The notes below the pieces were generated by a model, which saw nothing but the letters and a program-made list of their open reading frames with translations, made no database searches and was not told the DNA's origin. Of a DNA stretch of 24,312 nt, positions 1,924 through 5,334 are shown in pieces (position 1 is the first letter of the stretch; the number at the start of each line of letters is the position of its first letter). A program made the translations under genes and the position numbers. The stretch comes from a virus. The DNA is taken from IMG/VR virus record IMGVR_UViG_3300042934_000430, positions 1 to 24,312 of that record. One strand, 5' to 3'.

Positions 1924-2153
1924 CCAACGAACAACTGGCCAAGGTCGAGAACTATTTCGGTCCATACAAGCAACAGGCCGAGTTCAAGCCCGCGATTGAA
2001 CTGATCGAACACACCAAGGAGCTGCGCGCCTTTGTGCTGGTATTGACCGACTACCTGGCCATGCCAGGTCCGACCGCCGAGAAGACGGCCGAGCATTACC
2101 AGGTAGTGCGCCGCGCCAATGAGCTGCGCAACAAGATTCAACCCGTCAAATAG
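1920..2153 (+). CDS. Small phage protein of unknown function
   Basis: A 77-residue, largely helical protein (NEQLAKVENYFGPYKQQAEF at the N-terminus) with no cysteines and no membrane segment. Its ATG overlaps the stop of the Q-like gene by four bases, so the two are translationally coupled. I do not recognise it and see no functional motif. Confidence 0.55.
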   Translation: MTNEQLAKVENYFGPYKQQAEFKPAIELIEHTKELRAFVLVLTDYLAMPGPTAEKTAEHYQVVRRANELRNKIQPVK

Positions 2154-2166
2154 TCGAGGTGTCGCC

Positions 2167-2376
2167 ATGCTGGGAACATTGTTCAACCTGTCAAAGGCCG
2201 CTGTAGCTGTGGCGGTAACGCCTCTGGCGGCAGCGGTCGATGTGGTCACGCTGCCGCCCAATGCTGAGCGAGGTGCACCGCCGTTTGGTCGTGCTGCGCG
2301 CTGCCTGGGCCAGGCAGGCAAAGCCTTTGATGCGGCGATAGAACCGTCCGAATCCGCTAACGAATTAATGAAATAA
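2167..2376 (+). CDS. Small phage protein with hydrophobic N-terminus, unknown function
   Basis: A 69-residue protein with GAGG upstream of the ATG at 2167. Residues 1-30 are alternately hydrophobic (LFNLSKAAVAVAVTPLAAAV), which could be a membrane-associated helix, followed by a polar tail with a conserved-looking GQAGKAFDAAIEP segment. Similar short proteins are common and uncharacterised in tailed-phage genomes. It is the last gene before the integrase leader. Confidence 0.5.
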   Translation: MLGTLFNLSKAAVAVAVTPLAAAVDVVTLPPNAERGAPPFGRAARCLGQAGKAFDAAIEPSESANELMK

Positions 2377-2523
2377 AGACTTAAAGAATTAAAGAATGAA
2401 TCAGTGCGCAGTCTTTCCCCGCTGTATGCCCGTCGCTTGTATGGGTAGGGGAGTCCTGCGCCCAGCCCGCGACCGGGCCGCCTGACTGATTGGCCTGGTC
2501 GCCTTACCCAAGGAGCCAGGCCC
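2375..2523 (+). promoter_or_regulatory. Structured leader of the integrase gene
   Basis: About 147 bases between the preceding stop and the integrase ATG hold several structures. Two tandem copies of TTAAAGAA lie at 2381-2396 and could be integrase or excisionase arm sites. AAAGACT (2375-2381) pairs with AGTCTTT (2410-2416). GGGTAGGG (2443-2450) pairs with CCTTACCC (2502-2509) with one G-T wobble. GCCCG and CGGGC (2465-2478) form an internal hairpin. GGCCTGG (2492-2498) pairs with CCAGGCC (2516-2522). The last two long stems interlock in pseudoknot order, with the ribosome-binding sequence AAGGAG (2510-2515) between them. Likely a control element for integrase translation; no T-run terminator is present. 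Confidence 0.5.
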
Positions 2524-4750: not shown

Positions 4751-5134
4751 ATGGCCAAAGCAAGCGTTACGGGTAACGCCGCGAAGAAAAAGGCCGGAAC
4801 CCAGCGGCAGCAGAAGCGCCGCGAGCGATTAAAGGCTGAGGACGTTAAAGAGGTTACGGCGAAGTTTGGCCCGGCGTTGCGCGCCATGCTGGACGAGGCA
4901 CGGACCATTCGTGGCGGCCTGGATGGGCCTTACGATGTAGAAGAGTACATATGTACTCTTGTGCGCGAAGACAGTGCCAGGCTTAAGGGGCAGATTGCCG
5001 ATGCGCAGCGCTACCCGTGCAAGCAGTGCGGAAAAACGTTGCCGGCGGGCTGTGGCGGTGCCTTCAAGGGTGAGCTTGCGTGCCTGCTGACCCCGACTGC
5101 ATGGAAACTCAAGATTCCTGCCGTCGAGTTGTGA
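4751..5134 (+). CDS. Unknown basic protein with C-terminal four-cysteine cluster
   Basis: A 127-residue protein with GAGG (4741-4744) before the ATG at 4751. Residues 11-28 are strongly basic (KKKAGTQRQQKRRERLK), suggesting nucleic-acid contact. The middle contains a conserved-looking GPYDVEEYICTL segment. Cys90-x2-Cys93, Cys101 and Cys111 form a possible zinc-binding cluster within CKQCGKTLPAGCGG. I have the impression that similar proteins occur in other pseudomonad phages as hypotheticals, but I cannot name a function. Dispersed-dyad copies lie at both ends: 15 bases after the start, and across the stop codon. Confidence 0.6.
   Translation: MAKASVTGNAAKKKAGTQRQQKRRERLKAEDVKEVTAKFGPALRAMLDEARTIRGGLDGPYDVEEYICTLVREDSARLKGQIADAQRYPCKQCGKTLPAGCGGAFKGELACLLTPTAWKLKIPAVEL
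4766..4777. repeat. Dispersed GTTAC-SS-GTAAC dyad, copy 2
   Basis: GTTACGGGTAAC within a longer GCGTTAC-GG-GTAACGC dyad (4764-4779, 7-base arms). It begins 15 bases after the start codon of the four-cysteine protein gene and is read as GTT ACG GGT AAC. Confidence 0.65.
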
Positions 5135-5233: not shown

Positions 5234-5289
5234 TTGATTCATCGTGGTGATGTTGCGGCCACGGTGGCACTGCACAGTCATTCCCTTAG

Positions 5290-5320
5290 CCCCCGGCCAT
5301 CACTGGTCGGGGGTTTTTTT
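5290..5320 (+). terminator. Intrinsic terminator ahead of the lysis genes
   Basis: CCCCCGGCC (5290-5298), a six-base loop and GGTCGGGGG (5305-5313) form a 9-bp stem with one G-T pair, followed by seven T residues. This is a textbook intrinsic terminator. It stands between the late promoter and every late gene, so late expression must either read through it (Q-type antitermination) or come from elsewhere. Confidence 0.8.
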
Positions 5321-5334
5321 ATGGAAAAAATAAA

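Follow-up and report, generated by a model that had tools for sequence, protein, structure and literature searches.

A conserved structured RNA leader with two mutually exclusive hairpins precedes a phage integrase gene

Introduction

Phage-plasmids must hold a recombinase available and yet keep it scarce. To our knowledge, the control of recombinase level in these elements has been little studied. The locus described here raises the question of whether such control may reside in the messenger RNA itself. The window, by which we mean the whole stretch of 24,312 bases that was analysed, is the IMG/VR record IMGVR_UViG_3300042934_000430 from position 1 to 24,312, and this record is a fragment. 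It encodes a tyrosine recombinase of the integrase type. A first-pass annotation of the sequence had placed two interlocking stems around the ribosome-binding site of this gene and had read them as a cis-regulatory RNA that controls integrase translation. We ask here whether the region is a conserved RNA, how it is built and what it may do for the recombinase. The leader that we describe would be a compact and testable answer to the need for a scarce enzyme, and it offers a signature for searches.

Results

The integrase gene lies within an operon-like run of small genes (Table 1); downstream of it, at 4751-5134, a transcription regulator (phrog_536) is encoded. The small upstream gene ends about 50 nt 5' of the first hairpin of the leader, and the leader thus sits between two genes of one operon-like run. 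Neither a sigma-70-like promoter nor a terminator-like site was found in 2150-2650, and a Pfam scan of the nine proteins neighbouring the integrase gave no match. Further downstream, a GC-rich inverted repeat followed by a T run (window positions 5288-5322) looks terminator-like by eye, and the equivalent place of a related Pseudomonas contig (L002) holds one too.

The two stems of the first-pass annotation are present with the right letters at the right positions, and they stand in pseudoknot order. The first stem pairs GGGTAGGG (2443-2450) with CCTTACCC (2502-2509) over 8 pairs, one of them G-U. The second, here called P5, pairs GGCCTGG with CCAGGCC over 7 pairs and encloses the Shine-Dalgarno sequence. 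Dinucleotide shuffling of 2375-2523 produced interlocking helix pairs of at least this strength in 9 of 500 cases, and by itself the interlock is thus no more than moderately unusual. Folding 2375-2545 gives a z-score of -2.55, with 1 of 200 shuffles as good. The strongest helix of the region had been missed. This helix A pairs GCGACCGGGCCG with TGGCCTGGTCGC (2469-2480 with 2491-2502) over 11-12 pairs, and a single helix as strong as its 11-pair form appeared in 4 of 500 shuffles. Helix A takes up the 3' part of the hairpin at 2465-2478, which the first-pass annotation had also proposed, together with the 5' arm of P5. In the window this small hairpin excludes helix A and therefore favours P5; as a feature of the family it was not seen in the leader alignments.

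Table 1. Features of the integrase leader and its flanking genes in the window
Feature	Position	Strand	Remarks
Small upstream gene	2167..2376	+	frame of ORF 2119..2376; phrog_38693, unknown function, E 4.7e-6
P1, basal part of 5' hairpin (CCCC)	2417..2420	+	can pair with GGGG 2448-2451 (minimum-free-energy fold)
P2 5' arm (TGCCCGT)	2427..2433	+	RNAalifold on the 14-leader alignment; pair counts in 30 leaders
P2 3' arm (ATGGGTA)	2441..2447	+	RNAalifold on the 14-leader alignment; pair counts in 30 leaders
GGGTAGGGG	2443..2451	+	invariant in 22/22 integrase leaders; includes one strand of the first stem
Hairpin GCCCG(CGAC)CGGGC	2465..2478	+	in the minimum-free-energy fold of 2375-2545
Helix A 5' arm (GCGACCGGGCC)	2469..2479	+	6/11 pairs changed on both sides (18 cells)
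Common middle arm (GGCCTGGTCGC)	2492..2502	+	3' arm of A; 2492-2498 is the 5' arm of P5
Shine-Dalgarno sequence AAGGAG of the integrase	2510..2515	+	inside P5; AAGG can pair with CCTT 2502-2505
P5 3' arm (CCAGGCC)	2516..2522	+	ends one base 5' of the start codon; 4/7 pairs changed on both sides
Tyrosine recombinase (integrase), 437 aa	2524..3837	+	start codon ATG at 2524; PF00589 E 3.7e-17; phrog_1 integrase E 4.4e-45

Related leaders were gathered by integrase searches, with the integrase of a related phage, by an alignment search and with short patterns. The family comprises 22 leaders: the window and the loci L002-L010, L090, L141, L143-L147, L158, L193, L199, L255 and L329. One Pseudomonas contig and nine viral contigs came from the first integrase searches. 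Identity to the integrase of the window is 99% for L003, 75-78% in a near group and 44-49% in a distant group. Most integrases of similar distance lack the leader; of the 80 loci from the alignment search, 7 carry it, and five of these seven are re-finds. A covariance model of P2 (the conserved part of the 5' hairpin) and helix A, built from 14 leaders, recovered the held-out members L141 (E 2.6e-11), L145 (2.8e-9), L009 (8.9e-9), L255 (3.1e-8), L090 (5.3e-7), L010 (5.8e-7) and L143 (0.017), with all other loci of that search above E 1, and it gave E 1.4e-17 for the later find L329. On four plasmid-borne leaderless recombinases the model found nothing, and on 22 leaderless records it gave one weak partial match only. 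Among 398 Pseudomonas genomes, 83 hold a relative of the integrase (E 1e-80 or better), and in one of them the model places a leader before the integrase. Simpler probes were discarded. The pattern TGCCCN{2,14}ATGGGTAGGGG matched six times in the same 398 genomes, once at the known leader and five times at places that do not look like integrase leaders by eye; the leader as a DNA query gave one true match there besides short ones; and pattern scans of viral contigs returned, apart from leaders, mostly chance matches. AT-rich direct repeats of a TTAACGAATTAACGAA type or a CTTTGACG type lie immediately 5' of the leader in the window (2359-2400), in L003-L007 and L193, and in L009, L010 and L145; these may be sites for a recombinase or a regulator.

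In a tree of 58 integrases (19 leader rows and 39 leaderless rows, without L005, L006, L158 and other leaderless loci, L211 being dropped for an internal stop) the leader rows fall into two supported clades of 6 and 13. The leader label changes twice on this tree, against a shuffled mean of 16.1, and three leaderless long branches lie between the clades. L007 and L008 have sister integrases (support 100/99) and leaders of two different sequence types, which suggests that leaders have been exchanged as a unit between phages.

Helix A and P5 both covary across the family. Two alignments were used, one of 14 of the 22 leaders (without L009, L010, L090, L141, L143, L145 and L255) and one of 18 (without the near-copies L003, L005 and L006), with L329 found after both. 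In a shuffle control that ignores kinship, although several rows are close kin and relatedness inflates the pair counts, helix A of the 14 leaders has 91.2% of its cells paired and a score of 0.288 against a shuffled mean of 0.144 (0/500), with at most 0.188 for slid arms; P5 likewise has 91.2% paired and scores 0.220 against 0.111 (0/500), its slides reaching at most 0.078. With 18 leaders, which include badly aligned distant ones, helix A is paired in 83.9% of the cells, again with 0/500 on score, and P5 in 86.8% (score 0.238 against 0.106 shuffled, 0/500; 11 cells with changes on both sides). A better argument for the helices than the pair counts comes from the slid controls and from how diverse the arms are. 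RNAalifold, run on a MAFFT alignment of the 14 leaders that was not fitted to any structure, returned P2 and helix A unprompted. Covariation in homologous leaders, by which the first-pass annotation had wanted its stems to be judged, is thus seen for its second stem.

The first stem behaves differently. Read as a pseudoknot, it would pair in the loop of P5 and lock the Shine-Dalgarno sequence, and it pairs more often than the neighbouring registers do (89.9% of cells paired, against 61-62% for one-column slides); the rarity of so strong an interlocking pair among shuffles, given above, also speaks for it. However, its 5' strand is invariant, so that no pair has changed on both sides, several leaders form it in part or not at all, breaks or gaps interrupt it in the majority of distant members of the 18-leader alignment, and its GGGTA is already paired in P2, a helix with covariation support of its own. 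The folding programs that we used do not represent pseudoknots, which bears on exactly this pairing with the P5 loop. We consider the pseudoknot very unlikely. The first-pass annotation was right about the place and the kind of element and half right about its structure: the conserved structured leader that encloses the Shine-Dalgarno sequence stands, while a two-state arrangement takes the place of the single pseudoknot.

Helix A and P5 both need positions 2492-2498, and therefore only one of them can form. The leader is a conserved structured RNA with two mutually exclusive hairpins, one of which encloses the Shine-Dalgarno sequence while the other competes for one of its strands, and both show covariation. 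The same plan of three arms recurs in other letters: GGCCAGG/CCTGGCC against TCCTGGC/GCCAGGA in L143, GCGCCC/GGGCGC against CGGGGC/GCCCCG in L009, and GACCCG/CGGGTC against TGCCGGGT/GCCCGGCG in L141. On a joint three-arm score, 20 of 21 leaders reach at least 12; among 73 leaderless integrases from this family 13 do so, and their median is 10. With script-picked arms, 20 of 21 leaders have the end of the last arm 0-4 nt 5' of the start codon. The ungapped scores of L008, L145, L147 and L193 did not beat their own shuffles. L145 shows a variant wiring (1427-1497): its arm next to the start codon is a copy of the middle arm and has its complement in the 5' arm. By eye, L144, L147 (968-1046) and L158 have no clear Shine-Dalgarno sequence before the integrase.

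Predicted folding gives the two hairpins an order in time. In transcripts that end just past helix A, its pairing probability is 0.81-1.00 in 11 of 11 leaders. At equilibrium the full leader favours P5 with a probability of at least 0.77 in 6 of these 11 (L193 and L158 being unscored for P5), whereas helix A dominates in L143 (0.98) and L141 and L144 are mixed. For a growing transcript of the window, the energy model, in which pseudoknots are not represented, predicts helix A at 1.00 from nt 2504 to 2518 and P5 at 1.00 at nt 2522. This predicted takeover falls two bases before the start codon and lowers the mean exposure of the Shine-Dalgarno sequence from 0.62 to 0.21. As isolated helices, A (-22.3 kcal/mol) is calculated to be more stable than P5 (-18.2 kcal/mol). 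We infer that P5 wins in the whole leader since the hairpin at 2465-2478 is freed as well.

Upstream of the two competing hairpins stands P2. Over 30 leaders, 97.6% of its cells are paired, and its closing pair is C-G in 14, U-A in 10, U-G in 2 and unpaired in 4. Two of its positions retain G-U, in 29 and in 25 of the 30 leaders, which suits an RNA better than a DNA palindrome. This matters, since the region might instead be a DNA site whose inverted repeats, together with the AT-rich direct repeats upstream, are bound or crossed over by the recombinase or bound by a repressor, with RNA folding as a by-product. A recombinase gene is adjacent, direct repeats of the two types were seen by eye upstream of several members, and a strand test inside the helices, in which G-U and A-C mismatches were given equal treatment, counted seven G-U against seven A-C mismatches, a result without strand bias that gives no support for RNA over DNA, the choice of helices being partly off target. 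Against a DNA site stand the two G-U pairs of P2, kept in nearly all members, the varying length of the spacers between arms, and the position of the last arm, which keeps its distance from the start codon and encloses the place of the Shine-Dalgarno sequence. The same hairpin also occurs in the same orientation between a stop and a start codon before unrelated genes of other phages. We consider a DNA site unlikely.

The 3' arm of P2 runs into GGGTAGGGG, and these nine invariant bases could themselves be the functional element, bound by a trans-acting RNA or protein to which the hairpins merely present the site. Beyond the 22 integrase leaders the bases are also found in leaders of other phage genes, although there the pattern search required them. 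There is no known partner, and the reading leaves the preserved pairing of A and P5 unexplained. As a full account of the leader it appears quite improbable; it can also be true together with a switch.

The conserved letters also hold an open reading frame. A translated leader peptide (MGRG..., with its start at xTGCC and its stop in the loop of helix A) might set the hairpins by the position of the ribosome, as in erm-type attenuators. The frame is open beyond GGGTAGGGG in 21 of 21 leaders, a stop follows 22-43 nt later in 20 of 21, and 19 of 21 have an in-frame start codon at the TGCC site. However, by eye no Shine-Dalgarno-like sequence precedes this start in the leaders inspected, L002 falls out of frame, and a stop is missing in L147. 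Modelling a ribosome at the stop codon produced no consistent change, with a mean Shine-Dalgarno exposure of 0.34 in the free and 0.37 in the blocked leader. Pairing in P2 accounts for the start codon as well as for the R of RTGGGT. The peptide had been tried as a driver for its conserved MGRG frame and was dropped, as P2 pairing explains the conserved letters; we rate it as highly improbable. In L147 the leader frame enters the integrase with no stop between.

The leader-bearing records share a further property. Of 19 leader records, some of them short fragments, 12 contain a ParA relative (L003, L004, L006, L007, L010, L141, L143, L145, L147, L158, L199 and L255), as does 1 of 20 leaderless records, which were hand-chosen for record length from the leaderless loci. 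These counts suggest that the leader-bearing "integrases" reside mostly in phage-plasmids. The nearest relative of the window, L003, is among the positive records, and the ParA-family ATPase of the Pseudomonas contig, with which the records were searched, matches Pfam CbiA (E 2.8e-12). One member of the family is the Delftia plasmid pHQS1, a circle of 39,999 bases that carries genes for ParA, terminase and capsid as well as one of the S24 family. The Pseudomonas contig L002 (35,695 bases) has phage genes throughout in the frames inspected and no exact terminal repeat. Judged by gene content, the leader-bearing records are probably largely phage-plasmids.

Discussion

The data presented here show that the integrase gene is preceded by a conserved structured leader. 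We propose that the 150 nt before the gene act in cis as an mRNA leader with three conserved helices, P2, A and P5. When helix A is formed, the Shine-Dalgarno region would be free and translation on; when P5 is formed, the Shine-Dalgarno sequence would be enclosed in a helix that reaches to the start codon and translation would be off. Helix A would form first in the order of transcription, and P5 would displace it once its last arm is made, at about the time the start codon emerges. The switch would then probably be kinetic in nature. Its likeliest use may be a brief window of translation on the new mRNA followed by shut-off, which would keep the recombinase low in a phage that probably lives mostly as a plasmid. 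P2 might be the receiver of a signal or a stabiliser of the fold. A translational switch is the best reading of the leader, and we put it forward with fair though not high confidence.

The Cre recombinase of P1 resolves dimers. By analogy, it is plausible that the leader-bearing recombinase may be a dimer resolvase instead of an integrase.

The int-alpA motif of Rfam is named for phage integrase neighbourhoods, and the first-pass annotation had raised it as a possible relative. The neighbourhood is common to both; however, no scanned leader matches any Rfam family at gathering score. A cmscan with the whole library (4227 models, int-alpA presumed among them) reached no gathering score, either in the window or in sets of ten and eight further loci, and in 2340-2600 up to E 10 it returned two unrelated families only, far below their cut-offs, which we regard as chance matches; int-alpA was not among the hits even at E 10. 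The int-alpA lead is not supported. In the literature on int-alpA, candidate structured RNAs and structured phage integrase leaders, covered at the level of abstracts with subscription papers mostly outside, no description of this leader was found, and searches of the same scope on lambda retroregulation and integrase mRNA hairpins returned no paper. The STAXI motif, an RNA candidate near genes of DNA-handling proteins including integrases, is described as tandem pseudoknots (PMC2864571). It shares with our leader the vicinity of integrase genes and differs in this architecture, and the leader matches no Rfam family.

In their working, the nearest known systems are leaders whose transient fold times translation. 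In the leader of the MS2 maturation gene, a transient fold permits translation before the stable fold closes the start site (PMC6733600). A transient fold of new RNA would time translation here in the same sense as in MS2. However, MS2 is an unrelated RNA phage and its leader a long cloverleaf, while here two hairpins share a strand; the two are compared by working, not by sequence. Co-transcriptional folding also governs access to the Shine-Dalgarno sequence in the aapA3 and hok toxin mRNAs (PMC6733600). Their setting is that of toxin-antitoxin systems, and for aapA3 it is the transient hairpins that mask the Shine-Dalgarno sequence, the final fold being opened by 3' processing (PMC6733600).

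Translational attenuators of the erm type use mutually exclusive hairpins, one of which sequesters the Shine-Dalgarno sequence of the next gene, and they need a translated leader peptide. The leader described here differs in that its open frame has no ribosome-binding site visible by eye.

The 5' hairpin reaches beyond integrases. The pattern TGCCCRYN{3,12}RTGGGTAGGGG matches 103 stretches of viral contigs, and among the 71 of these matches that were listed many are leaders of other genes (L265, L267, L279, L283, L311, L324, L294 and others, as well as L259:1501-1661). Since the pattern imposed the conserved letters, only the unfixed positions count as evidence in these non-integrase leaders. 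The genes that follow the hairpin are small ones without a known function and one for a primase. In the cases viewed more closely it stands between two genes of P2-like early operons; in L265 it follows an Ogr-like regulator (phrog_603) and phrog_3461 and precedes phrog_3967 and a primase (phrog_1139), the terms P2-like and Ogr-like being labels from our own reading. A search for the three arms of the A/P5 plan in the non-integrase leaders found no comparable switch. A common 5' hairpin before unrelated genes hints at a common signal or factor, one that is unnamed in Rfam and in the literature searched. It is conceivable, though we consider it doubtful, that unrelated temperate phages use TGCCCRY/RTGGGTA-GGGG as a shared receiver domain of their early mRNAs, those for recombinases in phage-plasmids and those of replication operons in P2-like phages. 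In the former it would drive an A/P5 platform that ties translation of the recombinase, perhaps for dimer resolution, to a phage or host signal, and the whole would be a new class of phage regulatory RNA. The TGCCCRY/RTGGGTAGGGG hairpin was also seen once in a Pseudomonas genome (G242).
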